56,837 nucleotides of DNA from a virus, in IMG/VR virus record IMGVR_UViG_3300042549_007930, positions 1 through 56,837 of that record. One strand, given 5' to 3'. The translations under genes and the position numbers were made by a program. Each line of letters begins with the position of its first letter. Positions within the stretch are counted from its first letter, which is position 1. Of this stretch, positions 1 to 19,588 are shown piece after piece. The notes under the pieces are model-generated. The model was not told the DNA's origin, did no database searches, and saw nothing but the letters and a program-made list of their open reading frames with translations.

Positions 1-393
1 AAACAATGTTTTAAATTTATACCTGAGAAATATAAATCAGTAATAATCCATGATTGTGATGTTATAATAGATTCTGAAGTATTAAATAAACTTCAACATA
101 ATAGTTTAGCTATAACTAATTATAAATTAGATGGATTAAAATATGGTTTTATAGAGTTAGATCAAAATTTTAAATATTTAAAAGGTAATGAAAAGGAAAC
201 TGAAACCGGGCATATATCAATTGGAGCCTATTCAGTTGAAGGAAAATTATTTTTTGATTACTTAAAAACTGCTACTGAAGAAAGTTTATTAGCTTATTAT
301 AATCAGGCAGAATGTGTAAATGTAGTTTACTCTAAAAAACATACTAATTTAGGTGATATTAACTCTTATATGGATAATTTATGGTTATTGTAG
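1..393 (+). CDS. Sugar-phosphate nucleotidyltransferase-like protein, C-terminal part
   Basis: Frame 1 is open from the window edge to a TAG at 391-393, so the 5' end is missing. The remaining 130 residues look like the second half of a GT-A-fold NTP transferase that makes NDP-sugars: a strand ending in HDCDVIID near the start (substrate/metal-binding region), then GHISIGAYSVEG followed by FFDYL, resembling the G-x-Y-x-F segment of such enzymes, and a C-terminal TNLGDINSY that resembles their closing D-x-G-x-x-x-x-Y segment. The next gene starts inside its end (ATG at 381). As first gene of the sugar operon it could supply the activated sugar. A glycosyltransferase of the same fold cannot be excluded. 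Confidence 0.6.
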   Translation, partial: KQCFKFIPEKYKSVIIHDCDVIIDSEVLNKLQHNSLAITNYKLDGLKYGFIELDQNFKYLKGNEKETETGHISIGAYSVEGKLFFDYLKTATEESLLAYYNQAECVNVVYSKKHTNLGDINSYMDNLWLL

Positions 394-1370
394 TAGACTT
401 TGATGGAACATTAGCGTTAGGAGATACAAGTAATATCCCAACAATGCATCCTAATCTTAAATTAATTACCCTTATTAATCAGATGTATAATGATGGTAAT
501 TATATAAAAATAGTAACAGCTCGAGGATGTAAATCTTGCTCCACTATTAAAGAAAGGGAAGACAAATATGGAAAAATTATAACTAATTGGTTAAACATTA
601 ATGGAGTAACCTATAATGAATTATCATTTAATAAAGAGTACGGAGATGCTTATATTGATGATAGAGGTTATAATATTAAAGATACAATCTATTATAACAA
701 ATTAGATTCTAAATTTACTAATAATAAAGTAAGACGAATTAATGATTGTGTAGTTAAGAAAAGTGACTCAACTATACAAGAAGTATCTTGGTATAATAAA
801 GCACTAGAAATAGGATTAGATATACCTTCAGTTTTAAGTTATGATAAGGATACTATAGCAACTAGTTTTATTGAAGGTTCTTCTTGTTATAATGTAGATT
901 TAATTCTTAATACTTTAAGAAAATTTAAAAATACTAAACCAACTAATAAAGTTAATTTTAATTCTTATATTGAAAGAATTGAAAATCATATCAAAAACAA
1001 TCCTTCAATAAAGTCTGGAAATAAATTAATTGATAAATTAAATTCAATTAACCCACCTAATACTTTCAATCATGGAGATTTCTCCACTCATAATCAAATT
1101 GAAAATGAGGGTAAATTATACCTAATAGATCCTATATATTCAGAAGATGTCTATCAATCCTATGTTATAGATGCTGCTAAACATTTATTTAGTGTTTTAT
1201 ATTATAATTTAGATGCTGACTTCTATAATATATGTTATAATGAGTATATAACTAAACTTGATATTAAAGAAGAAGAATTAAATATCTTAATAGCAAGTGA
1301 ATCAATCAGAGTATCTAATAGAAAAAAACAACTAATTGATGTTACTAATAATTTAATAGACATTTTATGA
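381..1370 (+). CDS. HAD phosphatase fused to an APH/choline-kinase-like phosphotransferase
   Basis: Two enzyme halves in one 329-residue chain. Residues 1-120 are HAD-like: DFDGTL at 6-11 (nucleophile Asp6, acid/base Asp8) and the acidic pair Asp93-Asp94 in YIDDRGYN. Residues about 126-329 look like an aminoglycoside/choline kinase: HGDFSTHN at 231-238 (catalytic Asp233, Asn238) and LIDP with the metal-binding Asp250. Known families: HAD enzymes usually remove phosphate from small metabolites, while APH/ChoK-like kinases phosphorylate sugars or amino alcohols. Inference: with the upstream nucleotidyltransferase this resembles a kinase-phosphatase-cytidylyltransferase set for activating a sugar or alcohol. 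The start overlaps the previous gene and the stop overlaps the next start (ATGA). Confidence 0.72.
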   Translation: MVIVVDFDGTLALGDTSNIPTMHPNLKLITLINQMYNDGNYIKIVTARGCKSCSTIKEREDKYGKIITNWLNINGVTYNELSFNKEYGDAYIDDRGYNIKDTIYYNKLDSKFTNNKVRRINDCVVKKSDSTIQEVSWYNKALEIGLDIPSVLSYDKDTIATSFIEGSSCYNVDLILNTLRKFKNTKPTNKVNFNSYIERIENHIKNNPSIKSGNKLIDKLNSINPPNTFNHGDFSTHNQIENEGKLYLIDPIYSEDVYQSYVIDAAKHLFSVLYYNLDADFYNICYNEYITKLDIKEEELNILIASESIRVSNRKKQLIDVTNNLIDIL

Positions 1371-2440
1371 AAATAATAGATGTAAATATACCTGATTTAA
1401 CTCACCCTCATAGACATTATTGTTTCTTTTTAGAGGATACTTTAATACAGCATAAAGATCCTATTATAGAAAAGGGTATAGGGCAAGGATGGATGAAATT
1501 AATTCATAATAATGTTGAATTAGATTTAGATCAAAAAGATTATGGTAAAATGGGACATAAAACTTTACCTATTATAAATCATAATATTGATATGATACAT
1601 GATGAGATCATAACTGAAGATTTATTTTTACTTTATGACCCAGCTGGATTAAATTATGCTCATTTCTTTTTTGATTTGTTTGGAAAGGTACTTTATTATG
1701 ATGAATTAATAAAAAATAATCCTAATATAGTTTTAGGTATCCCAGAAGATTTTTATCAAACTGAGGGTAATAATACTTTTATAAAACAATGGTTAGATTT
1801 ATATTATGAGGGTAAAGATATAAAAATAATTGTATTAAAAAAAGATATTAAGTACTTGGTATCTAAATTAATTATACCTAATATATTGTATGGTTTCCCT
1901 GAGGGTAATGGAGACAATTATATAATAGATAAAATAATAGAAACTGTAACTAAAGTACCATCATTAACACCTGTTAAAAATGGATGTTACATTTCAAGGC
2001 AAGACACTATTAAAAGAGGATGGTACCATAAAAGAGATTTAGTTAATGAATTAGAATTTATTGATAAGGTAAAAACTGAACTTGACTATGATATAATTGA
2101 ATTAATGGATTATGATTTAAAAGGAAAAATACAAATATTTAAATCATACAAAAATATAATTCAACAAAACAGTGCTTCTAATATTAATATATTATTTTCA
2201 GATAAAAATAACACTAATATAATTTTAACTAATCCTAGAATGGGTGAATGGTTAAATTACAAATTATCACAATTTTCAAATAAATCTAAAACTAATTTAA
2301 TAGTATTAAATGGTGTGGGTAGTTATTTAACTGAAGAATTAGATCCTAATCAAGTTGATAAAGGAAATTATCCATGGGAACTAGATAATATAGATGGTAT
2401 TATAGAGGTATTAAAACAAATTGATAAAGGAGAAATATAA
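1367..2440 (+). CDS. GT61-like (DUF563) glycosyltransferase
   Basis: The 357-residue protein has the outline of family GT61: an N-terminal NYAHFFFDLFGKVLYYDEL segment (family N-x-x-H-x-x-x-D), a central ISRQDT followed by RDLVNELEFI (family R-x-x-x-x-R-x-x-x-N-E), and EIIL-type strands leading to QQNSASNINILFS, where the family normally has H-G-A-x-x-x-N-x-x-F. The usual HGA is replaced by NSA, so activity is uncertain. It probably adds a sugar to the glycan made by this operon. ATG 1367 overlaps the preceding TGA by 4 nt, indicating translational coupling. Confidence 0.6.
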   Translation: MKIIDVNIPDLTHPHRHYCFFLEDTLIQHKDPIIEKGIGQGWMKLIHNNVELDLDQKDYGKMGHKTLPIINHNIDMIHDEIITEDLFLLYDPAGLNYAHFFFDLFGKVLYYDELIKNNPNIVLGIPEDFYQTEGNNTFIKQWLDLYYEGKDIKIIVLKKDIKYLVSKLIIPNILYGFPEGNGDNYIIDKIIETVTKVPSLTPVKNGCYISRQDTIKRGWYHKRDLVNELEFIDKVKTELDYDIIELMDYDLKGKIQIFKSYKNIIQQNSASNINILFSDKNNTNIILTNPRMGEWLNYKLSQFSNKSKTNLIVLNGVGSYLTEELDPNQVDKGNYPWELDNIDGIIEVLKQIDKGEI

Positions 2441-3652: not shown

Positions 3653-4963
3653 ATGGATAATATTTTAAGTTTAGTACAGGAGTACATTACAAAAAAAGAC
3701 AGTGAAAAGAAATGGGTCGCAGGAGAGGACTTAGTCCAATATGCTGGACCTTACTTTGATGGTCAAGAAGCTCAAGCGGTTGTTAAAACTATGCTTGAGG
3801 GTTGGTTAGTATTAGGAAAAGAAGGAGCAATGTTTGAAAGACGCTTCCCTAAAAAATTAGGACACAAGACAGGAGTTATTGTTAATAGTGGTTCAAGTGC
3901 TAACTTATTAATGATGTTAGCTTTAACATCTAAAAGAGGAATGAATTTACCTAAGGGTACAAAAGTAATTACTCCAATAGCTGGATTCCCAGCAACACTT
4001 AGTCCTGCTATCCAAGTAGGCTTTACACCTATATTTGTTGATATTGAATTAGAATCTTTAAATTTAGATTTAGATCAAGTAGAACAAGCATGTATTGATC
4101 ATCCAGATGCTAAAATCATTACATTTGCACATGTATTAGGTAATCCACCTAACATGGATCGATTAATGGAAATTATAAATAAATATGACTTAATTTTATT
4201 AGAAGACTGTTGTGACGCGTTAGGAACAACTTATGATGGTAAAATGTTAGGTTCATTTGGTAAAATGGCTTCATGTTCATTCTATCCAGCACATCATATT
4301 ACAATGGGTGAAGGAGGATTTGTAGCATGTAGTGATCCTCAATTGGAAAAAATCTTAAGAAGTTTTAGAGACTGGGGTAGAGGATGTTACTGTCAAGGTA
4401 AAGCAAATGCTTTAGAATGTGGTTCATGTGGAATTAGATTTAGTAACTGGTTACCAAGTTTACCTAATGAGATATTTGATCACAAATACACTTACGAAGA
4501 GATTGGTTACAATTTGAAACCAACTGAGTTACAAGCAGCAATGGGTAATATTCAGTTAGGTAAATTAGAAGAAATTGGAGTACTAAGAAGAAGAAACCAT
4601 AAAGCAATTGTTGACATCTTTAAAAAATATGAAGATAAATTTATATTACCTAAAGCAACAGATAAATCAGACCCAGATTGGTTTGCAGTTGCATTAACAG
4701 TTAGAGATGGAATGGATTTCACAAGAGCTGAATTTTGTCAGTACTTAGAAAAAAATAAGATTCAAACAAGACCTTATTTCGCAGGTAACATTATGTTGCA
4801 ACCAGGATACTCTCACTTAATTGATTCAAAAGAAGTAATTGAAAAATATCCAGTATCAAGAAAAGTAACAACTGATACATTTTTCTTAGGATGTTCACCT
4901 GTAATTACCTTAGAACAAATTGATTATATAGAAACAATTGTAGATAAATTCTTTAATAATTAA
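3653..4963 (+). CDS. rfbH: RfbH/DdhC (E1)-type NDP-4-keto-6-deoxyglucose 3-dehydrase
   Basis: A 436-residue DegT/DnrJ/EryC1/StrS-fold PLP enzyme. The PLP-lysine position is histidine (His214 in SFYPAHHITMGEGG), the mark of E1 dehydrases rather than aminotransferases. The [2Fe-2S] ligand pattern is present: Cys187, 57 residues, Cys245, 1 residue, Cys247, 8 residues, Cys256 (known E1: C-x57-C-x1-C-x7-C). Such enzymes remove the C3 hydroxyl of an NDP-4-keto-6-deoxyhexose on the way to 3,6-dideoxyhexoses and need an E3-type reductase, which is not in this window. The length fits the family. It has its own 58-nt upstream gap and looks codon-optimised compared with its neighbours, suggesting good expression. 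Confidence 0.88.
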   Translation: MDNILSLVQEYITKKDSEKKWVAGEDLVQYAGPYFDGQEAQAVVKTMLEGWLVLGKEGAMFERRFPKKLGHKTGVIVNSGSSANLLMMLALTSKRGMNLPKGTKVITPIAGFPATLSPAIQVGFTPIFVDIELESLNLDLDQVEQACIDHPDAKIITFAHVLGNPPNMDRLMEIINKYDLILLEDCCDALGTTYDGKMLGSFGKMASCSFYPAHHITMGEGGFVACSDPQLEKILRSFRDWGRGCYCQGKANALECGSCGIRFSNWLPSLPNEIFDHKYTYEEIGYNLKPTELQAAMGNIQLGKLEEIGVLRRRNHKAIVDIFKKYEDKFILPKATDKSDPDWFAVALTVRDGMDFTRAEFCQYLEKNKIQTRPYFAGNIMLQPGYSHLIDSKEVIEKYPVSRKVTTDTFFLGCSPVITLEQIDYIETIVDKFFNN

Positions 4964-4964
4964 T

Positions 4965-5897
4965 ATGGGCGATAAAAAAATAGGATGTTTTTTCCTTCAA
5001 ATTAGTAATGAGGAATATGATAATTATCAAAAAGATGATTTTTTAGCTCCTAATGCTATAAATAGTTTTAAAAAATGGCATCCCGAAGTTGATATACATC
5101 ATATCACTAATGATAATTTTGAATCATATTTAAAAGATTTAAATATAACTGATTATTATGATAATTTAGGTTTAGTTAGAATTCACCTTATTAGAGAATT
5201 AATAAGACAGAAAAAATATGATAAAATTATAATGTTGGGTGTAGATACCTTTACATGTTCATATTTAGATGAATTTATAAACAATGATACTGATGACTTA
5301 ATATGCTCATCTGGTCCTCCATATTTGTTTATAAAAACAGATTATTGGGCTCCTAAAAGTGTTCAATTTGAGCATAATGGTTTTATTTACAATGATGTAG
5401 ATTTTATTAATGCTGATGTAGTTTGTTTTAATAATTTATATGCAGCTGAAATGTTATATGACAAATCTATTGAATTTTGGACTGGCCATGCTGAACAGGG
5501 AGGTATGAATTACTTATATCAAAATCAAGACCAATTAAATATTAAAGTCAGTATTGTAGATTTTCCTTATAATAAAGCCAACTCATTATATAATGTTAGG
5601 TCTAAAGGAAGTGCTTGTGGTGGTGATCAAATGCGTCAAGGAAAATTATATAGTGGTAACTATAAAGATCCAAATAGTAGAGTTATAGGTGATGTTTATC
5701 CTACCTCAACTTACCAGGTAAGAGATAATAAATTATTTACTCCTGATAATAAACAAATAAAAGTATTTCATTACGCTGAAGCTTTAGGAGTTAAAACTAA
5801 AGAGGAATATAATGAGGCTATATATGAGATGAAAAATATATGGTTTAATAAAGAAACAAAAAAATTCTTAATAGAAGAATGTGATATGAATTTTTAA
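4965..5897 (+). CDS. Glycosyltransferase-like protein (GT-A, GT8-like layout)
   Basis: 310 residues. Residues around 75-100 read RIHLIRELIRQKKYDKIIMLGVDTFTCSYLDEF: a helix, a hydrophobic strand and an acidic residue, the layout of GT8-like enzymes where the strand ends in D-x-D (here only one Asp, VDT). A later FINADVVCFNN fits the acceptor-side strand of that fold, followed by EQGGMNYLYQNQ, like the D/E-Q-x-x-x-N helix of GT8/GT32 proteins. It starts 1 nt after the previous stop and ends 1 nt before the next start. Probable transferase for the operon's sugar. Confidence 0.55.
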   Translation: MGDKKIGCFFLQISNEEYDNYQKDDFLAPNAINSFKKWHPEVDIHHITNDNFESYLKDLNITDYYDNLGLVRIHLIRELIRQKKYDKIIMLGVDTFTCSYLDEFINNDTDDLICSSGPPYLFIKTDYWAPKSVQFEHNGFIYNDVDFINADVVCFNNLYAAEMLYDKSIEFWTGHAEQGGMNYLYQNQDQLNIKVSIVDFPYNKANSLYNVRSKGSACGGDQMRQGKLYSGNYKDPNSRVIGDVYPTSTYQVRDNKLFTPDNKQIKVFHYAEALGVKTKEEYNEAIYEMKNIWFNKETKKFLIEECDMNF

Positions 5898-5898
5898 T

Positions 5899-6855
5899 AT
5901 GAAAAAAGTAGTATACGTAACAGGTTGCTTAGGGTTTATAGGATCTTATGTAACAAGAGAATGCTTAAAAAAAGGATGGTATGTTAAAGGAGTTGACAAA
6001 ATGACTTACGCTGCCAATAAAGAATTACTACATCAGTTTAGAGAATATGATAATTTCTCATTTGTAGATTGTGATATAAACGACTTAAAATTTTTATATG
6101 ATTGTGATTATATAATTAATACTGCCGCTGAGACTCACGTTGGTAATTCCATAGTTAACAGTGATGAATTTGTATCTTCAAATATAAATGGGGTACATAA
6201 CTTACTTGAGTTAATAAAAAACCATAGAGGAGAAAATACATCTAAACCTATTTTACTTCATTTCAGTACAGATGAAGTATATGGAGATATTGAAGAAGGA
6301 GAACATATTGAAACAGATTTACTTAAACCTTCTAATCCATACTCAGCTACTAAAGCAGCAGCTGATATGTTAATAACAGCTTGGGGTAGAACTTATAATT
6401 TACCTTATATCATAATAAGACCCACAAACAATTATGGTGTAGGTCAATATGTTGAAAAATTAATCCCTAAATCACTTAAGTATTTAAAATTAGGTAAAAA
6501 AATACCTTTACATAATAATGGTACTCCAATTAGAAATTGGCTACATGCTCAAGACACAGCTAACGCTGTTATTAAAATAATTGAATCGGGAGTACAAAAT
6601 GAAATTTATAACATTTGTGGAGGGTTTGAACAGAGTAATTTGGATACTGTAAAAAAATTACTTACATTATATAATAATGATCAAGTTTATATTTTAGAGG
6701 ATTTTATAGACTTCTCATGTAATAGACAAGGTCAAGATGTTAGATATGCTTTAAATGATGATAAATTAAGAGCATTAGGATGGAAACCTGAAATGAATTT
6801 TGAAATAGAATTAAAATCAATAGTAGAATATTATAAAAATAAATTTATATGGTAA
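5899..6855 (+). CDS. NDP-glucose 4,6-dehydratase-like extended SDR
   Basis: 318 residues, RmlB-like. The Rossmann motif is TGCLGFIGS (9-17), then VDKMTYAAN, AAETHV, the active-site segment HFSTDEVYGD (Thr-Asp-Glu), PYSATKAAAD (Tyr-x-x-x-Lys), RPTNNYG...EKLIP and RNWLH. In known enzymes this set converts dTDP- or CDP-glucose to the 4-keto-6-deoxy sugar, which is the substrate class of the adjacent E1-like dehydrase. The motif wording is closer to dTDP-glucose 4,6-dehydratase (RmlB) than to the CDP enzyme (RfbG), so the nucleotide is uncertain. It is slightly shorter than typical RmlB (about 350). Confidence 0.82.
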   Translation: MKKVVYVTGCLGFIGSYVTRECLKKGWYVKGVDKMTYAANKELLHQFREYDNFSFVDCDINDLKFLYDCDYIINTAAETHVGNSIVNSDEFVSSNINGVHNLLELIKNHRGENTSKPILLHFSTDEVYGDIEEGEHIETDLLKPSNPYSATKAAADMLITAWGRTYNLPYIIIRPTNNYGVGQYVEKLIPKSLKYLKLGKKIPLHNNGTPIRNWLHAQDTANAVIKIIESGVQNEIYNICGGFEQSNLDTVKKLLTLYNNDQVYILEDFIDFSCNRQGQDVRYALNDDKLRALGWKPEMNFEIELKSIVEYYKNKFIW

Positions 6856-7514
6856 AAACATTAGACGAGTTAGCGATACAGTACGAAACAGATAAAGCTA
6901 CAATTTATCCTAGATCTAGTGTTCATGGGTATGCTCCAATCTATGATAAATTATTAACTCCTTTAAGAGATAAGCCTATAAAAATGTTAGAGGTAGGAGT
7001 GTGTATGGAGGGATCAGAAGGAGGTCATTCAATATTAATGTGGAATGATTATTTTACTAAAGCTCATATTCATACTTTTGATATTGTTGATATGTCTTCA
7101 AAATTATGTATAACTGAAAATGATAATGTTTTCTTTTATCAAGGGGATCAAAGTAATAGAGAACATATGAAAAATATGTACCAGGAATATGGTAGCACTG
7201 AATTTGATTTTATTTTAGAAGACGGTTCACATGAACATAACCATCAAATGATCTCTTTAGGTTATTTATTTAAATATGTTAAGTCAGGAGGATATTACAT
7301 ATTAGAAGATATGTCAATACCAGAACAAGTAGTATGTTGTATACGAAATGATGAGACTTATAAAATACTTCAACAGTTTAAAGAAACAGGTAAAATTGTT
7401 TCTGAACATTTATTATCTGAAGAAATAGACTATTTGGAAAAAAATATTAAAAGTATAGAAATACATCATGATATTCAAAACGCTTACGCAGTTGCAATTA
7501 TAACTAAAAAATAA
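6849..7514 (+). CDS. SAM-dependent sugar O-methyltransferase-like (TylF/MycE type)
   Basis: 221 residues with a class I methyltransferase core: LEVGVCMEGSEGGHSILMW (SAM-binding Gly loop), IHTFDI (acidic residue at the end of strand 2), FDFILEDGSHEHNHQMISLGYLFKYVKSGGYYILEDM (motif IV/V region). The EDGSHEHNHQ segment resembles the metal-binding D-x-S-H-x-x of TylF/MycE and cephalosporin-hydroxylase-related methyltransferases that act on sugars. It overlaps the dehydratase by 7 nt. Inferred role: methylating a hydroxyl of the deoxysugar. Confidence 0.7.
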   Translation: MVKTLDELAIQYETDKATIYPRSSVHGYAPIYDKLLTPLRDKPIKMLEVGVCMEGSEGGHSILMWNDYFTKAHIHTFDIVDMSSKLCITENDNVFFYQGDQSNREHMKNMYQEYGSTEFDFILEDGSHEHNHQMISLGYLFKYVKSGGYYILEDMSIPEQVVCCIRNDETYKILQQFKETGKIVSEHLLSEEIDYLEKNIKSIEIHHDIQNAYAVAIITKK

Positions 7515-7519
7515 TAAAC

Positions 7520-8317
7520 ATGAATACAAGAGAATCAAAATGTGTAAAAATCCTAACAGACCTTGTTGAAAATGAGGGGCTAGTAGGTATTAAAACTAGT
7601 TTCGAAGATGAAGGTGCTACCTTTAATGAAACAGTTAGACTTAAACAAGTATGTAATGAGGCTAAAGTCAAAATTACACTTAAAATAGGAGGGCCAGAAG
7701 CAATTAGAGATTTAAAAGACTCTACTATTATTGGAGTAAAAGGAATTGTTGCTCCTATGGTTGAATCAGAATTTGGTCTAGTAAAATTCTTACAAGCTAC
7801 TAAAACTCATATATCAGAAGATACTTTAAGTTCATTGCAATTGAATGTAAATCTAGAAACAATCACCGCTATGAATAACTCTGATAAAATATTATCCATT
7901 CCTGAAGTACAGGATTTATATGGAGTGACTGTAGGTAGAGTTGATTTAGTATCATCAATGGGTAAGGATAGATCTTATGTTAATAGTGAAGAGGTTTATA
8001 AATTAGCTAAACAAGTATTTACTAAAGCAAAATCTAAAGGACTTAAAGCTTGCTTAGGTGGAGCAGTATCTATTGAGTCATTAGACTTCCTTAAAAAATT
8101 ACACTCAGAAGGATTACTTGATAAATTTGAAACTAGATATTGTATTTTTGATCCATCAATATCATTAAAGAATTTATCTAGAGCATTAGCTAAAGCTCAA
8201 ATGTTTGAATACGAGTGGATGACTAGTAAACATGAATATTATACAGCTTTATCAAATCAAGATATTAAACGAATCAAAATGATTCAAGATCGTATCAACC
8301 AATCTTCTACATTTTAA
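7520..8317 (+). CDS. HpcH/HpaI aldolase/citrate-lyase-like protein
   Basis: 265 residues with the TIM-barrel wording of this family as found in polysaccharide loci: VGIKTSFEDEGATFNE at the N-terminus, VKITLKIGGPEAIRDL, GVKGIVAPMVESEFGLVKFL (the Glu-containing substrate/metal strand), LQLNVNLET, and LYGVTVGRVDLVSSMG. Family members join or split pyruvate-type 2-keto acids and aldehydes, or cleave CoA esters. Here it could build or trim a carbon branch, but the substrate is unknown. It is followed 1 nt later by the SDR gene. Confidence 0.6.
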   Translation: MNTRESKCVKILTDLVENEGLVGIKTSFEDEGATFNETVRLKQVCNEAKVKITLKIGGPEAIRDLKDSTIIGVKGIVAPMVESEFGLVKFLQATKTHISEDTLSSLQLNVNLETITAMNNSDKILSIPEVQDLYGVTVGRVDLVSSMGKDRSYVNSEEVYKLAKQVFTKAKSKGLKACLGGAVSIESLDFLKKLHSEGLLDKFETRYCIFDPSISLKNLSRALAKAQMFEYEWMTSKHEYYTALSNQDIKRIKMIQDRINQSSTF

Positions 8318-8318
8318 T

Positions 8319-8954
8319 ATGAAGGTACTAGTTACAGGAGGTTCTAGAGGTATAGGTAAAGCAATTGTGACTCTATTTAAAGAAAAAGGTCATGATGTGT
8401 ATTCTCCATCAAGAGAAGAATTAGACCTAACAAAGGACTTTACACTAGTAAAAACTAATTTTGATATTATTATTAATAATGCTGGGGTAAATCCTCTAAA
8501 ACATATTGAAGAAATAAATGATAATGAGGTGATGAAGGTAAATTACCAGTCACCTCTTTCAATTATTCAACAATGTCTTCCTTATATGCTAAATAAAGGT
8601 TATGGAAGAATATTAAACATAGGGAGTATTTGGATAGAATTAGCTAAACCTAAAAGATTAGCTTATAGTGCTAGTAAAAATGCTATACATGCCCTAACAA
8701 AATCAATTGTAGCTGAATATGGAGACCAAGGTATAATAGCTAATACTGTATCACCTGGATTCATAGGGACTGATTTAACCTATCAAAACAACTCAGAATT
8801 AGAGATACAAAACCTTACAAACCAAATACCTCTAAAAAGATTAGGCACACCAGAAGAAGTAGCGAAACTAGTTTACCAACTTACAATAGAAAATAATTTT
8901 ATAGCAGGACAAAATATAATAATAGACGGAGGATATTCATGTACAATACTATAA
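8319..8954 (+). CDS. Short-chain dehydrogenase/reductase
   Basis: 211-residue classical SDR with TGGSRGIG (NAD(P) binding, residues 6-13), NNAG, a catalytic Ser in ILNIGSIW, YSASK (Tyr-x-x-x-Lys), and VSPGFIGTDLT, ending with FIAGQNIIIDGGYS, the standard C-terminus. It is a little short for the family (about 245) but the core is complete. It probably reduces a keto group in the sugar pathway. Its end overlaps the next start by 16 nt. Confidence 0.85.
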   Translation: MKVLVTGGSRGIGKAIVTLFKEKGHDVYSPSREELDLTKDFTLVKTNFDIIINNAGVNPLKHIEEINDNEVMKVNYQSPLSIIQQCLPYMLNKGYGRILNIGSIWIELAKPKRLAYSASKNAIHALTKSIVAEYGDQGIIANTVSPGFIGTDLTYQNNSELEIQNLTNQIPLKRLGTPEEVAKLVYQLTIENNFIAGQNIIIDGGYSCTIL

Positions 8955-9955
8955 AAATACAATCAAAAATTAATAACTACAATATCCAGTTTGTAGATAC
9001 TCTTAATAACATACAATCCCTTATTGACCAACCTCATACTATTACTTTTATAGATAGTAATGTTTCTAAATTATATCCTGAATTATATAGGGAAGCAAAT
9101 ATTAGTGTAGAATGTAATGAAAATGCTAAGACCTTAGAAGGCACATATAATATTTTTGATACTTTAATTGAACAAAAAGCTAATATACAAACTAAATTAG
9201 TAGTAATAGGAGGAGGTATTTTACAAGATCTAATTGGATTTTGTGCTTCAACATACTGTAGAGGTATTCAATATGATTTAGTTCCAACAACTTTATTATC
9301 TCAAGCTGATAGTTGTTTAGGAGGAAAAACTTCTATAAATGTTAAAGGTAAGAAAAATATTTTAGGAACATTTTACCCACCCAACAACATTTATATTTGT
9401 ACTGAGTTTTTAAAAACTTTATCTACATTAGATTATTGTAGTGGGTTAGGTGAAGTATATAAATTTCATATACTGGAAAATAAAATTGATCAATTTAACA
9501 TTGATGGAGATATAAATAATATGATATATAAAGGATTATTATTTAAAGGAGATATACTTTCTAGAGATGAATTTGATAAAGGAGAACGTAAGTATTTAAA
9601 TTTTGGACATACATTTGGACACGCTTTAGAAACCACATCACAAAATAATCTCCCTCATGGTATAGCTGTCATTTTAGGAAGTATAATTGCAAGTCGAATT
9701 GCTAATAAGCTAAAATATAAAGTACCTAATTATGATTTATTACTATTAAAAGGAAAAGAATTAATAAATAGGTCTAATATAAAATTAGAACAGTCTTGGT
9801 TTGATTTAGATAGTCTATTAGAGATAGTAAAATCAGATAAAAAGAGTACAGGAAAATTAACAATGGTCTTATCTACAGATCATAACTTTCTTCAAGATAT
9901 AGAAGATATAAAAATTATAAAACAAGCTTTACAAGAAACATATGAGAGTATCTGA
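8939..9955 (+). CDS. 3-dehydroquinate synthase-like sugar-phosphate cyclase
   Basis: 338 residues with the AroB-superfamily core: VVIGGGILQDLIGFCAST, RGIQYDLVPTTLLSQADSCLGGKTSIN, KKNILGTFYPP, SGLGEVYKFHIL, and the metal-site NFGHTFGHALE plus LPHG. The His/Glu zinc ligands and the catalytic Lys of these motifs are present. Known relatives make 3-dehydroquinate, 2-deoxy-scyllo-inosose or valiolones from sugar phosphates. In a deoxysugar operon it may form a cyclitol rather than serve shikimate synthesis, since no other shikimate gene is near. The substrate cannot be read from the sequence. Confidence 0.75.
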   Translation: MYNTIKIQSKINNYNIQFVDTLNNIQSLIDQPHTITFIDSNVSKLYPELYREANISVECNENAKTLEGTYNIFDTLIEQKANIQTKLVVIGGGILQDLIGFCASTYCRGIQYDLVPTTLLSQADSCLGGKTSINVKGKKNILGTFYPPNNIYICTEFLKTLSTLDYCSGLGEVYKFHILENKIDQFNIDGDINNMIYKGLLFKGDILSRDEFDKGERKYLNFGHTFGHALETTSQNNLPHGIAVILGSIIASRIANKLKYKVPNYDLLLLKGKELINRSNIKLEQSWFDLDSLLEIVKSDKKSTGKLTMVLSTDHNFLQDIEDIKIIKQALQETYESI

Positions 9956-11669
9956 TTATATAATACAATATTTAAAAGATAAACACAACACTGATACTAT
10001 ATTCACTGTATCAGGAGGAGGATGTATTTTTCTTATAGATTCTTTAGGGCATACTGAGGGAGTTAATTATGTAGCTACCCACCATGAACAAGCAGCAGCT
10101 ATAGCAGCTGAGGGATATGCTAGAATGAATAGTAAATTAGGAGCTTGTATTGTTACAAGTGGTCCTGGTGCTACTAATGCTATGACAGGAACATTATGTA
10201 GTTGGCAAGACTCTATACCTGTTATTTTTATTAGTGGTCAGGTAAATAAAGAATTAACAACTAATTTTACTGGACTACCTTTAAGACAGTTAGGAGACCA
10301 AGAATATAATATTGTTGAGTCAGTTAAAAATATGACAAAGTATGCTGTACAAGTTAATAATGTAGATGATATTAGATTTCATTTAGAAAAAGCTTGTACT
10401 TTAGCAACAACAGGAAGACCAGGTCCTGTATGGTTAGATATACCTCTTAATATACAATCAGCTGAAATTAATCCTGAACAATTGCATGGGTATAATGAAT
10501 CTATTGAGTTTCATCAAGCTAGTGAATTAGATATAGAACAAGTTATTACTAAATGGAATAATGCAAAGAAACCCTTACTATTAGTTGGTAACGGAATAAG
10601 ATTATCAGGAGGAGTAAAGGAGTTAAGAGAATTGCTAACTAAAACTAATATACCAGTTATCTCAGCTGTAAATGGAAATGATATAGTGACTTCTGACTAT
10701 GAACATTACTGTGGTAGATTTGGAACACATGCTCAAATTAGTGCTAATAAATTATTAAGTGAATGTGATTTTTTATTATCAATAGGAAGTAGATTATATG
10801 TAAGACAAACAGGATATAACTTTAAAGGATTTGCTAAACAAGCTCATAGGATATATGTTGATATAGACCAAAATGAGTTAAACAAACCAACTTTATTCCC
10901 TGACCATAAAATACATTCAGATGCTAAAGACTTTATTAATAAGTTATTACAAGAAGATATCAATGTGAGTAATTCAGAATGGTTAGAAGAATGTAAAGAA
11001 AGTAATAAAGCCCCTAAAGTATTACAAAGACATAGAGATAAAAAACATAATACTAGTGTATATGCTTTTATAGAACAGTTATCTAAAGTCTTACCTAAAG
11101 ATCACCATGTGGTAACTAGTGATGGCTCAGCTAATGTAGTTACTATGCAAGTAATGGATTTAACAGGTAATCAAAGATTAATCACAAATACAGGATGTGC
11201 TCCTATGGGTTATGGATTACCAGCTGCAATTGGAGCCGCTACACATAATAAAATAGTTTGTATAGAAGGAGATGGAAGTTTACACTTAAATGTCCATGAA
11301 TTGCAAACTATGAAACATTATAATCTTCCTATTAAATTAATAGTAATTAATAATGATGGGTACTTATCTATAAAGGTATCTCAAAAAACATTCTTTAATG
11401 GTAATTATGTAGCATCAGAAAAAAATAGTGGTGTATCATTTCCTAATTATGAAAAATTAATTAAAGCTTATGACTTACCTTATTTTAATATTACCAATAA
11501 TGATAATATACATCCTACATTAACTAAATTTTTATCTCAAGATGGACCATGTGTATTAGAAGTATTTACAGATCCAGATGAATTCCATGAACCAAAAGTA
11601 GTAGCTAAATTAGATGATGAAGGAAAATTTATACCAGGAGAATTAAATAATATACAATGGATAGAATAA
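9942..11669 (+). CDS. ThDP-dependent enzyme, acetolactate synthase/YerE-like
   Basis: 575 residues with all three ThDP-enzyme domains. The N-terminal PYR domain has the catalytic Glu49 in THHEQAAAIAAEGYAR and SGPGATNAMTG. The central domain has KPLLLVGNGIRLSGG. The C-terminal PP domain has EGDGSLHLNVHEL (GDG at 443-445) and INNDGYLSI. Length and motif order match acetolactate synthase large subunits and YerE, which attaches a two-carbon unit from pyruvate to CDP-4-keto-3,6-dideoxyglucose to make yersiniose. Co-occurrence with an E1-type dehydrase makes the YerE-like role attractive, but this is inference. It overlaps both neighbours by 13-14 nt. Confidence 0.8.
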   Translation: MRVSDYIIQYLKDKHNTDTIFTVSGGGCIFLIDSLGHTEGVNYVATHHEQAAAIAAEGYARMNSKLGACIVTSGPGATNAMTGTLCSWQDSIPVIFISGQVNKELTTNFTGLPLRQLGDQEYNIVESVKNMTKYAVQVNNVDDIRFHLEKACTLATTGRPGPVWLDIPLNIQSAEINPEQLHGYNESIEFHQASELDIEQVITKWNNAKKPLLLVGNGIRLSGGVKELRELLTKTNIPVISAVNGNDIVTSDYEHYCGRFGTHAQISANKLLSECDFLLSIGSRLYVRQTGYNFKGFAKQAHRIYVDIDQNELNKPTLFPDHKIHSDAKDFINKLLQEDINVSNSEWLEECKESNKAPKVLQRHRDKKHNTSVYAFIEQLSKVLPKDHHVVTSDGSANVVTMQVMDLTGNQRLITNTGCAPMGYGLPAAIGAATHNKIVCIEGDGSLHLNVHELQTMKHYNLPIKLIVINNDGYLSIKVSQKTFFNGNYVASEKNSGVSFPNYEKLIKAYDLPYFNITNNDNIHPTLTKFLSQDGPCVLEVFTDPDEFHEPKVVAKLDDEGKFIPGELNNIQWIE

Positions 11670-12433
11670 AAATATTAATTACAGGAGGTAATGGTTATAT
11701 TGCTAAAAGCATTACTAACCGTTTATGGGAAAAATACCATATATTATCTCCTGGAAGAGAAGAATTAGATTTACTTGATTCTAAATCAGTAGATGAATTT
11801 TTTGAAGGGAAACATTTTGATGTTGTTATTCATACAGCTACATTAGGTGGAAGTAGATTAAAAGAAGAGGATGAAACAGTTAGTTTTTATAACCTAATTA
11901 TGTTTTATAATCTAATTAGAAAAAAAGAACAGTTTAACAAATTAATATCATTTGGTTCAGGAGCTGAATATAGAACAGAATATACTCCATATGGCTTTAG
12001 TAAGAAGATTATAAATAAACTTATTCACAAGTATGATAATTTTTATAATTTAAGAATATATGCTGTATTTGATGAAAAAGAAAAAGATACACGTTTTATC
12101 AAATCTAGTATACAACGTTACTTAAATAATGAGCCTATAGTTATACACCAAGATAAATTAATGGATTTTATTTATATGCCTGACTTAATTTCTATAATTG
12201 AATTTTATATAACAGGAACTAATTTACAAAAAGAAATAGATTGTATATATGATGATACAGTTTCATTAAGTAATATAGCTAAGCAAATAAATAACTTATC
12301 AATAAATAAAGTCCCAATTAATATACAAAACCCTACCCCAGGAGAAAATTATATAGGAACTTATAATGAGCTGCCAATAGCTTATATAGGATTAGAAAAT
12401 GGAATTAAAAACGTTTTTGATAGATTAAAATGA
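11657..12433 (+). CDS. NAD-dependent epimerase/dehydratase-like SDR
   Basis: 258 residues. The N-terminal ILITGGNGYIAKSI is a Gly-x-x-Gly-x-x-(Gly/Ala) Rossmann motif; then SPGREELDLLD, VVIHTATLGG, ISFGSGAEY (Ser region), and TPYGFSKKII (Tyr-x-x-x-Lys). It is shorter than most sugar epimerases (about 310). It directly follows the ThDP enzyme; in yersiniose pathways an SDR reductase (YerF) follows YerE, so 4-keto reduction or epimerisation is plausible. Overlaps: 13 nt upstream, 4 nt (ATGA) downstream. Confidence 0.75.
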   Translation: MDRIKILITGGNGYIAKSITNRLWEKYHILSPGREELDLLDSKSVDEFFEGKHFDVVIHTATLGGSRLKEEDETVSFYNLIMFYNLIRKKEQFNKLISFGSGAEYRTEYTPYGFSKKIINKLIHKYDNFYNLRIYAVFDEKEKDTRFIKSSIQRYLNNEPIVIHQDKLMDFIYMPDLISIIEFYITGTNLQKEIDCIYDDTVSLSNIAKQINNLSINKVPINIQNPTPGENYIGTYNELPIAYIGLENGIKNVFDRLK

Positions 12434-13359
12434 ATATAAAAATTATTATACATTTGATGCCTTGGGAGATAGATTATGCCTTATTAACCTATACCCAACT
12501 TAAAAAAACTAAATATCATTTACCTGATGATGTTAATGTTTATGTTGAAACGGTTTTAAATTTATCTAATTATACTATTGATTGGGATCAAACTAAATTT
12601 CCTAAACAATACTTTATAGACAAATACACTCAATTAGCTCCACTACTTAAAGATTATAATCATATAAGTAGAATACATGATAATGAAAATTTATATGGGC
12701 ATTTAGATTTACAACGAGAATGTATAGCACCTGAAATTGATTATTATTTAGGTATTTGCCCTGATATATATTTTAGTGAGTACACTTTACCTTATTTAAT
12801 AGAAAGTGCTAGACAAATAACTAATAAGTATTTTATCATAACACCTAACATATCAAAAGTAGGTGATGCTGATTGGGATGAAATTACAAACCCTAAATAT
12901 TTAGATATCCCTTACTCAGATTACCTCAAAGTAGATATATTTGATATCAGAAATGATAATAAAAATTTAAATCAAGATGTAAGTTTATACCCAACTAAAA
13001 AAAGTAAATTTGCGGGTTGGTTTGATTTTTGTAGTAAATCATTTTATGAAGATTTATGTCCAGTCCAAGAAGATTGGGTGGGTTATGGACCTTGGGATTG
13101 GTACTCATTAATGATAACTAATTATGTTAAGTCATTAGGAGTAGATTTTCAGCAGTACTTACTTCAAGGAGAAACTATTTGGATGTATCCATCAGGCCCT
13201 TTAGTAGGAGATAATATTGATGGGTTTTCAAAATATTATAGAGATCATATAGTTTTTAAAGAAGGTGATAAACATTCTCAAAGAGCTTTATTTGAATCTA
13301 AAATGCAAGAATATCTTGAAAGAGGAATACAAACTTTAAAAGACAAAAATATAATATGA
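12430..13359 (+). CDS. Unrecognised protein of the sugar operon, possible glycosyltransferase
   Basis: 309 residues without a clear family signature. The first 40 residues (MNIKIIIHLMPWEIDYALLTYTQLKK) look like the opening beta-alpha unit of a GT-A fold. A strand with acidic residues (YLGICPDIYFSE) sits near residue 115 where a D-x-D-like site would fall, and aromatic-rich PVQEDWVGYGPWDWYS follows. No membrane segment or signal is visible. It overlaps its neighbours by 4 nt on both sides, next to a GT2 enzyme. The glycosyltransferase call is mainly by context. Confidence 0.4.
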   Translation: MNIKIIIHLMPWEIDYALLTYTQLKKTKYHLPDDVNVYVETVLNLSNYTIDWDQTKFPKQYFIDKYTQLAPLLKDYNHISRIHDNENLYGHLDLQRECIAPEIDYYLGICPDIYFSEYTLPYLIESARQITNKYFIITPNISKVGDADWDEITNPKYLDIPYSDYLKVDIFDIRNDNKNLNQDVSLYPTKKSKFAGWFDFCSKSFYEDLCPVQEDWVGYGPWDWYSLMITNYVKSLGVDFQQYLLQGETIWMYPSGPLVGDNIDGFSKYYRDHIVFKEGDKHSQRALFESKMQEYLERGIQTLKDKNII

Positions 13360-14288
13360 TTTCACTTATAATACCAACAATAGGTACTAACTCAGACTAC
13401 ACTGATAATTTAATTAACAATATTAGGGATTTATACCCTAATGAAAATGAAGTTGAAATAGTACTTCATATAGATGACACTGTAACTTTAGGAGTAAATT
13501 ACAATAATGCTGTGGCTAAAGCTAAAGGTGATAAAATTATTTTACTTCATAACGATATGATTATATCTAAGGGGTTTATTGAAACCATGGATAAACATAT
13601 TCAAAAAGGTAGAGTAACAACTTATACTAGGATTGAACCACCCATCTATAATGATACTTACCCAGGTAAAGTAATTTTAGACTGTGGAGGTGATTTAAAA
13701 ACATTTAATAAGGATAAATTTGATAATTTTAATATTGAAGAATCTTTAATAGATGGTGGCTCACAATTATTCTTTGGTTGTATGAAAGAAGATTATATTG
13801 GTATTGATGGTTATACCTTTAAAATGTTTTGTGAGGATGATGACTTACATTTAAGATATAAATTAGCTAATTTTGAACATAAAGTATCTTCAGCTCATGT
13901 TTACCATTTTGTAAGTAAAACTTCTAGAGCTAAAACTGACTATAAAGAAATTGAAAGTGAATCTAATATGGCTTTTATTAAAAAATGGGGATTCAGAAAC
14001 TCTCAATTCAATAAAGTATATAAAACTTATTATAACATAAAAGGAGATTTCCCAGCTTTATCATGGTGGATAAATCATTTTTCAACATCTATTTTAGAAG
14101 AAGCAAATATTATTGTAGATGTGGATGTTAGTAAATTTGAACAAAATGATCAAAATAATATTTTACAAATGTCTGATATTATATCTTCTAATAATGAAAT
14201 AGGTGAGTTTGAATTAGGTAATTTAAAAGTAAAAGTTAAATCCTTAGATTCATATGAGAAAGATTTAATATATCTTAAAAATAATTAA
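13356..14288 (+). CDS. GT2-family glycosyltransferase
   Basis: 310 residues. The GT-A opening MISLIIPTIGTNSDYTDNLINNI is followed by EIVLHIDD, GVNYNNAVAKAKGDKIILLHNDM (the usual A-x-G-x-x-I-x-x-L-x-D-D region, here HND) and a later FGCMKEDYIGIDGYTFKMFCEDDDLHLRYKL, matching the GT2 E-D-x-D-L acceptor motif. It likely transfers an NDP-sugar made by the operon. It is the last gene of the sugar cluster; the next gene starts 21 nt later behind a different candidate promoter. Confidence 0.78.
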   Translation: MISLIIPTIGTNSDYTDNLINNIRDLYPNENEVEIVLHIDDTVTLGVNYNNAVAKAKGDKIILLHNDMIISKGFIETMDKHIQKGRVTTYTRIEPPIYNDTYPGKVILDCGGDLKTFNKDKFDNFNIEESLIDGGSQLFFGCMKEDYIGIDGYTFKMFCEDDDLHLRYKLANFEHKVSSAHVYHFVSKTSRAKTDYKEIESESNMAFIKKWGFRNSQFNKVYKTYYNIKGDFPALSWWINHFSTSILEEANIIVDVDVSKFEQNDQNNILQMSDIISSNNEIGEFELGNLKVKVKSLDSYEKDLIYLKNN

Positions 14289-18562: not shown

Positions 18563-19588
18563 ATGATTAAACAACAATTTGAAAAATATAAAATAAGTCA
18601 GATGCAATTAGACCCCTTTGGGGTCTGCAATGCTAAATGTTGGTTTTGCCCTGTTAAGTATAAAGGTAATCCTAAAGAGGGTAAAGAGGTTATGTCTATA
18701 GAATTGTTGGAGAAAATCATTGTTAATTTACTTGAGGAACGAGGTAGAGAAGATGGTTTAGTAAGTAAGAGTTTTAATGGGTTTTATACCGCCCATTATA
18801 ATGAAATACTATTATACCCTCATTTTGAAGAGATGTTAAAGTTATGTAAAAAATATAGATTACATACTTTAGTATTAACAAATGGGGTTCCAATGACTCC
18901 TGAAAAAACTGATTTGATAAAACAATACCCTGAAGTAATAACTGGAGTATGTTTTAATACACCTGCATTTGAAGCAGATGTATGGAGTAAACGTAGTGGA
19001 ATTAATATTAAACAATTTGATAAATTAATTAATAATATTAAATACGCTACTGAAAACTTACCTGATTTAGTTAGGGGAGGAGCTTTATCAATTCAAGTAA
19101 ATGGAGTAAATGAAAATTCATTCAGTGATAGAGGGGGTTGGTTAGATAAAGGTTTAGAGTTTCCAACTGACATTGATTTAGATCAATATAAAGGAGAATT
19201 AATTACTCAAGCTAATTTAGCTAGAGAAATGTTTCCGGGAGTTCAAGTGTATGAAGTACCTTCATTAATTGATAGAGCAGGTTTATTAGATAATATTATT
19301 ACTAATAAAGAGGCTATTAAGAGAAATTTACAAGGGTACAATGAAAATAAAAAAGTAATTGGTTGTGGAAATGGTATAGAGGTAGGAGGAAGACCTATAG
19401 GGTGGATACATATTAACGCAGCGGGTGATGCTTTCTTATGTTGTAATGATTATGATTTTGATTTTAAATTTGGTAACTTCAAAACACAAGAATTGAGAGA
19501 TTTTTGGGGTACAGAAGAACATATCAATTTAGTACAAAAGTCTTATGATACAATATGTAGAAATTGTGCATCTGCAATATTTGAATAA
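18563..19588 (+). CDS. Radical SAM/SPASM-like enzyme
   Basis: 341 residues. The [4Fe-4S] motif C-x3-C-x2-C is at Cys22, Cys26, Cys29 (FGVCNAKCWFC). Later TLVLTNGVPMT and VCFNTPAF fit the TIM-barrel strands. The C-terminal third has a second Cys set: IGCGNG, DAFLCCNDYDF, GNFKTQELRDFWGTEEH and ICRNCA, the pattern of SPASM/twitch domains that hold auxiliary clusters in peptide- and protein-modifying enzymes. The substrate is unknown. It lies between a thioredoxin and a Cys-rich protein. Confidence 0.85.
   Translation: MIKQQFEKYKISQMQLDPFGVCNAKCWFCPVKYKGNPKEGKEVMSIELLEKIIVNLLEERGREDGLVSKSFNGFYTAHYNEILLYPHFEEMLKLCKKYRLHTLVLTNGVPMTPEKTDLIKQYPEVITGVCFNTPAFEADVWSKRSGINIKQFDKLINNIKYATENLPDLVRGGALSIQVNGVNENSFSDRGGWLDKGLEFPTDIDLDQYKGELITQANLAREMFPGVQVYEVPSLIDRAGLLDNIITNKEAIKRNLQGYNENKKVIGCGNGIEVGGRPIGWIHINAAGDAFLCCNDYDFDFKFGNFKTQELRDFWGTEEHINLVQKSYDTICRNCASAIFE

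Follow-up and report, generated by a model that had tools for sequence, protein, structure and literature searches.

In the yersiniose A pathway of Yersinia, which comprises RfbF, RfbG, E1, YerE and YerF, deoxygenation by E1 is followed by acyl addition to a 4-keto deoxysugar by a thiamine diphosphate (ThDP)-dependent enzyme. The erwiniose and caryophyllose pathways contain YerE-like ThDP enzymes (ErwE and MMAR_2332, respectively) that use 4-hydroxy-2-oxo acids; in the consulted portion of a 2025 review of these enzymes, ErwE is described as preferring such donors and coupling them to CDP-4-keto-3,6-dideoxyglucose, and no AroB step is mentioned for either pathway (PMC12247030). JanthE (structure 8rph), a YerE-like ligase, joins 2-oxo acids to ketones and accepts 4-hydroxy-2-oxovalerate (PMC12188165), and the 11-gene bradyrhizose cluster of photosynthetic Bradyrhizobium, which includes a dTDP-glucose 4,6-dehydratase, serves a sugar that bears a carbocycle (PMC4743980). 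Here, we analysed a stretch of 56,837 nucleotides, the IMG/VR virus record IMGVR_UViG_3300042549_007930 (the window, meaning this whole stretch; GC content about 28%), and focused on a sugar cassette at positions 3653-12433. It encodes an E1/RfbH-type dehydrase (E1), an RmlB-like 4,6-dehydratase (RmlB), an HpcH/HpaI-type aldolase (HpcH), an AroB-like cyclase (AroB), a YerE-like ThDP ligase and two short-chain dehydrogenase/reductase proteins (SDR1 and SDR2). An earlier note on this DNA had proposed that a phage carries a pathway for a branched or deoxygenated sugar; E1 and the YerE-like ThDP enzyme support such a pathway, for a sugar that is both deoxygenated and C-branched, and all the genes it named were recovered at the positions it gave, as tightly packed or overlapping plus-strand open reading frames (Table 1).

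The same enzymes recur in many viruses. Viral contigs were scanned and the ThDP proteins collapsed at 90% identity, which gave 90 cassettes (82 viral and 8 bacterial), the window not being counted. HpcH, SDR1, AroB and the ThDP enzyme occurred together in 31 distinct viral cassettes, indicating that the gene set is not a chance association. The four genes were directly consecutive in 27 of the 31 and there typically abutted or overlapped by about 15 bases; RmlB lay nearby in 26 and SDR2 was present in all 31, as it was in nearly all cassettes. We give an even chance to the reading developed below, that the window carries a modular phage pathway leading to a deoxysugar branched at C-4, with the branch ring-closed as a carbocycle.

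Bacterial counterparts came mainly from 395 Bacteroidota genomes, as a genome scan with the HpcH alignment returned three loci only. A close HpcH was found in 8 of the 395, in operons of the order rfbF-rfbG-E1-ThDP-SDR1-AroB-HpcH-SDR2, with variations, or with a haloacid dehalogenase-type (HAD) hydrolase replacing SDR1-AroB. The order in Arsenicibacter rosenii is rfbF-rfbG-HAD-ThDP-HpcH-E1. The presence of rfbF-rfbG and E1 in these operons ties the cassette to the chemistry of nucleoside diphosphate (NDP)-4-keto-3,6-dideoxyhexoses. The existence of a homologous operon in Bacteroidota would be expected if bacterial DNA had been mis-assembled onto phage DNA, the possibility raised in the earlier note as fatal to its proposal. 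This is contradicted by about 80 distinct viral sequences with similar cassettes, several of them on contigs of 110-170 kb, and by the identity of HpcH, AroB and ThDP proteins between phage and bacterial versions, which is only 35-51%; we regard mis-assembly as exceedingly improbable. The window itself has phage genes, one for a DNA ligase and one for a baseplate wedge protein that is 48% identical, over its full length, to its counterparts in Flavobacterium phage immuto and Microcystis phage Mel-JY01. The INPHARED collection of isolated phages held no HpcH relative; E1 relatives occur there in cyanophages. The ThDP and AroB matches in that collection look like bacterial DNA within phage assemblies; many of the 'phage' entries that carry aroB or acetolactate synthase (H1-H15, H56-H95) appear to be bacterial contamination.

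On the ligase, the closest solved structure was JanthE (376 bits, compared with 256 bits for acetolactate synthase II). Phylogenetic analysis of 97 proteins placed every cassette ThDP enzyme, viral or bacterial, with JanthE and away from the acetolactate synthases (support 0.996); JanthE itself sat among the viral enzymes that adjoin MhpE. The window protein also fell below every NCBIfam acetolactate synthase cut-off (the best score was 359.9 of 738, and TIGR00118 gave 356.2 of 538). By sequence, then, it is a YerE-type ketone ligase as first suggested, and a place among the acetolactate synthases, or a catabolic role, was ruled out. The cofactor motif is the canonical GDG in the window enzyme and CDG in JanthE. 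Only the family names, AroB and acetolactate synthase-like, would favour an auxiliary metabolic role for these genes in raising host synthesis of shikimate or branched-chain amino acids. Such a role is very improbable, given the ThDP scores and tree, an AroB score of 233 against a cut-off of 305 bits for 3-dehydroquinate (DHQ) synthase (TIGR01357), and the position of the cassettes among RmlB, E1 and glycosyltransferase genes.

The gene module that adjoins the ThDP gene varied among the 82 viral cassettes: HpcH in 39, NeuB in 26, MhpF/MhpE (acetaldehyde dehydrogenase plus 4-hydroxy-2-oxovalerate aldolase) in 6, PanB in 3 and a DJ-1/cupin set in 5, with none found in 3. From established family chemistry, HpcH, NeuB, MhpF/MhpE and PanB are expected to make 4-hydroxy-2-oxo acids. 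Since the ligase usually stands beside a module expected to supply such an acid, the mix of a cyclase and an aldolase follows a logic. The earlier note had found that this mix matched no known pathway; it is indeed not plain yersiniose, but it does match the Bacteroidota operon, and it is swapped by rule with a phosphatase or a NeuB-plus-kinase module. ThDP lineages mostly follow the donor module in the tree, and such swapping is a feature of the phage cassettes rather than of the erwiniose and caryophyllose pathways, with which they share YerE-like enzymes. In L061 (12252-13844), L066, L086 and L193, a DJ-1/PfpI protein, a cupin and a small HAD fill the donor slot before the ThDP gene. Split transketolase/E1-dehydrogenase halves adjoin the branched-sugar cassettes of L089 (13995-15167), L022 (5623-6789) and L019. 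The viral contig L079 has E1 and the ThDP gene on one strand and SDR1-AroB on the other, with two HpcH copies and a ferredoxin-domain protein.

The window HpcH scored 40.9 bits against its Pfam family (cut-off 25). Its AlphaFold model (predicted local distance difference test score, pLDDT, 94.8) gave SbnG and HpaI aldolases as top Foldseek matches (E about 1e-8), so the modelled fold is that of a class II pyruvate aldolase (TIM barrel). E113 and D142, candidates for the metal-binding Glu and Asp, do not vary across the family and align with VES and ADL of YfaU, although the match to YfaU was weak (E 0.31). For AroB, the best-scoring NCBIfam model was TIGR04425, an AroB-related phospholyase (313.1 bits, below the cut-off of 400). 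AroB shares fold family and catalytic residues with 3-dehydroquinate synthase, other sugar phosphate cyclases and TIGR04425, but it lies below both curated cut-offs, is encoded within a branched-sugar operon and has a phosphatase as its alternative. E172, H224, H240, K130, K175, R217, N221 and H228, putative zinc ligands and catalytic residues, are invariant in 19 sequences; their correspondence to the A. nidulans DHQ synthase is presumed by us. SDR1 was confined to AroB cassettes. SDR1-AroB pairs without a ThDP gene were seen in other phages, in L226 (8143-12814) and also in L222-L260, beside a cytidylyltransferase/cupin fusion, a class III aminotransferase and an SIS isomerase; these loci possibly encode an activated aminocyclitol pathway.

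All DHQ-synthase catalytic positions checked were kept in AroB, bar one Glu-to-Asp change, and they include residues that we take to hold the carboxylate of 3-deoxy-D-arabino-heptulosonate 7-phosphate (DAHP). This conservation would suit an order in which AroB acts before the ThDP ligase, AroB and SDR1 turning a DAHP-like acid from HpcH into a quinate-like ring acid while the ligase adds only acetyl from pyruvate. However, HpcH would then not be feeding the ligase, because the quinate-like product has lost its 2-oxo acid character; moreover, ThDP lineages track the donor modules, and HpcH-HAD cassettes have no ring maker. We therefore consider this order rather improbable.

Some bacterial operons lack AroB, and a phosphatase was therefore predicted in its place. 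The unnamed gene of 254-258 amino acids in the AroB slot proved to encode a HAD hydrolase. Because most small HAD proteins were missed by Pfam, they were assigned through the motifs DFDGV, T, K and DD. Among HpcH cassettes, 36 had AroB without HAD and 11 had HAD without AroB, while none had both and none had neither (Fisher 6e-11, not corrected for the tree). Mapped on the ThDP tree, this state changed at least five times, and all four supported independent contrasts ran in the predicted direction. One viral locus, L035, illustrates the swap: its DNA matches the window in E1 (89%), RmlB (82%) and HpcH (87%), the match ends at SDR1-AroB, is poor over part of the ThDP gene and has regained its strength by SDR2, and L035 carries HAD-ThDP where the window has SDR1-AroB-ThDP.

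Because NeuB enzymes commonly use sugars that carry no phosphate, a kinase was predicted for cassettes that combine NeuB and AroB. Two NeuB subfamilies were distinguished, NeuB-2 being 84-93% alike internally and about 53% to the others. In NeuB-1, a sugar kinase was present in 8 of 8 cassettes with AroB and in 0 of 13 without it; the eight do not include L152, an unusual cassette whose kinase match is weaker. NeuB-2 cassettes had AroB and neither kinase nor HAD. The kinase was called by fold search: the extra gene 3′ of AroB (312-330 amino acids) has no firm Pfam assignment, and the predicted structure of its product (pLDDT 86.4) matches xylulose and glycerol kinases, so it is a sugar kinase as judged from the model.

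These two rules also bear on whether the ring is made for the branch at all. E1, RmlB, the ThDP ligase and SDR2 could build an ordinary branched sugar of the YerE or ErwE type, with SDR1-AroB making a separate cyclitol that is attached later; as the SDR1-AroB pair is also found without the ThDP gene, it can serve other pathways. A separate cyclitol would not, however, predict strict alternation of AroB and HAD in HpcH cassettes, nor a kinase that tracks AroB in NeuB-1, and we judge it unlikely.

On the acceptor side, E1 scored 460.7 bits against NCBIfam RfbH (NF011936; cut-off 423). Its H214, within YPAHHITMGEGG, aligns with the His found in wild-type Y. pseudotuberculosis E1 (3bcx), a residue that is Lys in 3bb8, and His replaces the pyridoxal phosphate lysine in every E1 relative of the fetched loci with a readable motif. 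The pattern C187-x57-C245-x1-C247 is present, with C256 or C259 as the putative fourth [2Fe-2S] ligand; the identification of an E1/RfbH-type dehydrase from His214 and these cysteines was thus borne out. The RmlB-like protein scored 305.6 bits with TIGR01181 (cut-off 365) and 71.7 with the CDP-type model TIGR02622, which makes it dTDP type. No CDP-glucose enzymes were found in the window cassette, and RfbF was not seen among the 22 related viral loci listed. The comparison with yersiniose made in the earlier note thus holds for E1 and the YerE-like enzyme but not for the nucleotide sugar, and plain yersiniose was ruled out; the window further differs in its apparently dedicated donor aldolase, its extra cyclase and reductase, and in being phage-borne. 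Because RmlB replaces RfbG and no nucleotidyltransferase was seen, the phage version probably draws on host NDP-glucose.

From these patterns we infer the substrates, the order of steps and the product as follows. RmlB would convert host NDP-glucose into an NDP-4-keto-6-deoxyhexose, from which E1 would remove O-3. HpcH would join pyruvate to an aldose phosphate (erythrose 4-phosphate being the simplest choice), giving a 2-oxo-3-deoxy-aldonate phosphate, which the ThDP ligase would decarboxylate, placing the acyl part on the C4 ketone. By analogy with DHQ synthase acting on DAHP, AroB would then eliminate the phosphate as leaving group and link the end of the chain to the newly added acyl ketone, forming a cyclohexane branch, whose ring ketone SDR1 would reduce; SDR2, the methyltransferase and glycosyltransferases would finish and use the sugar, possibly on host O-antigen or the virion, as the earlier note suggested. 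Where a HAD stands in place of AroB and SDR1, the phosphatase would strip the phosphate and the branch would stay open; in the window phage it is probably closed into a ring. By description (a carbocycle-bearing sugar and a dTDP-glucose 4,6-dehydratase), bradyrhizose resembles this proposed product. We know of no organism from which a sugar bearing such a carbocyclic C4 branch has been described.

Several observations weigh against this pathway. The sequence similarity of HpcH to known aldolases is weak. The AroB residues that we presume to bind the DAHP carboxylate are retained, while a decarboxylated branch would have no carboxylate. The role of SDR2 in AroB cassettes is hard to place, because cyclisation would use up the branch ketone. 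The tree-corrected test of AroB against HAD has only four independent contrasts (p 0.125) and, with four pairs, cannot reach significance. HAD, AroB and kinase occur together in five NeuB cassettes, L152 included, so strict exclusivity across all cassettes fails in NeuB-1 and the rule is restricted to HpcH cassettes. A true-type E1 is present in 19 of the 39 viral HpcH cassettes; as this is only about half, the acceptor may be 3-deoxy or not, and 3-deoxygenation would be optional.

Table 1. Features of the cassette and its flanks in the window
Feature	Position	Strand	Support
GT61-type glycosyltransferase, possible user of the sugar	1367..2440	+	Pfam Glyco_transf_61 36.3 bits, cut-off 27
E1/RfbH-type 3-dehydrase (optional 3-deoxygenation)	3653..4963	+	NCBIfam RfbH; PDB 3bcx 343 bits
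Family-less protein, glycosyltransferase suspected	4965..5897	+	no Pfam or PHROG match
RmlB-like NDP-glucose 4,6-dehydratase, proposed maker of the 4-keto acceptor	5899..6855	+	TIGR01181
S-adenosylmethionine methyltransferase, optional decoration	6849..7514	+	PHROG 21658, E 2.4e-18
HpcH/HpaI-type class II pyruvate aldolase, putative source of the 2-oxo-3-deoxy-aldonate (phosphate) donor	7520..8317	+	Pfam HpcH_HpaI
SDR1, FabG-like reductase, proposed ring-ketone reducer	8319..8954	+	adh_short_C2 123 bits
AroB/DHQ-synthase-like cyclase, proposed to eliminate phosphate and close the branch into a ring	8939..9955	+	DHQ_synthase 117.9 bits, DHQS_C 83.1 bits
YerE/JanthE-type ThDP ligase, proposed to branch the 4-keto sugar	9942..11669	+	JanthE 8rph match, tree
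SDR2, epimerase-family reductase	11657..12433	+	Pfam Epimerase 62.9 bits
Family-less protein, often 3′ of SDR2, glycosyltransferase suspected	12430..13359	+	no family match
GT2 glycosyltransferase	13356..14288	+	Glycos_transf_2 26 bits, cut-off 23.3

The GT61 and GT2 genes that flank the cassette suggest a surface glycan as the destination of the sugar. Relatives of the family-less protein next to E1 (73-77% identical) adjoin E1 in L026, L043 and L089, the one that follows SDR2 is a conserved neighbour in L001, L023 and L033, and the methyltransferase gene is found in only some cassettes. Just upstream of the cassette, window positions 381-1370 encode what looks like a fusion of a HAD phosphatase part and a kinase-like part, both below Pfam cut-offs, and positions 18563-19588 encode a radical SAM protein with a SPASM domain.

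Phages are known to carry surface-sugar genes. To our knowledge, a modular phage pathway that builds carbon-carbon branches on sugars has not been reported. Many uncultured large phages appear to carry mix-and-match enzymes that graft a second carbon chain onto a sugar. More tentatively, and at somewhat less than even likelihood, we propose that combinatorial sugar branching is widespread among large phages, with donor modules (HpcH, NeuB, MhpF/E and PanB) and finishing modules (AroB plus SDR1, HAD and kinase) swapped around a YerE-type ligase, and with a sugar carrying a carbocyclic branch at C4 as the window product. The 2025 review of these ThDP enzymes names viruses as unexplored ground (PMC12247030). 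The module swaps obey a chemical logic and so give testable predictions for dozens of enzymes, and the cassette enzymes may provide new catalysts for tertiary alcohols and carbocycles. Phages may thus be an untapped source of unusual sugars for recoating hosts or virions, and if these sugars reach the host surface or the virion, they would form a rapidly changing level of competition between phages and their hosts and among phages.

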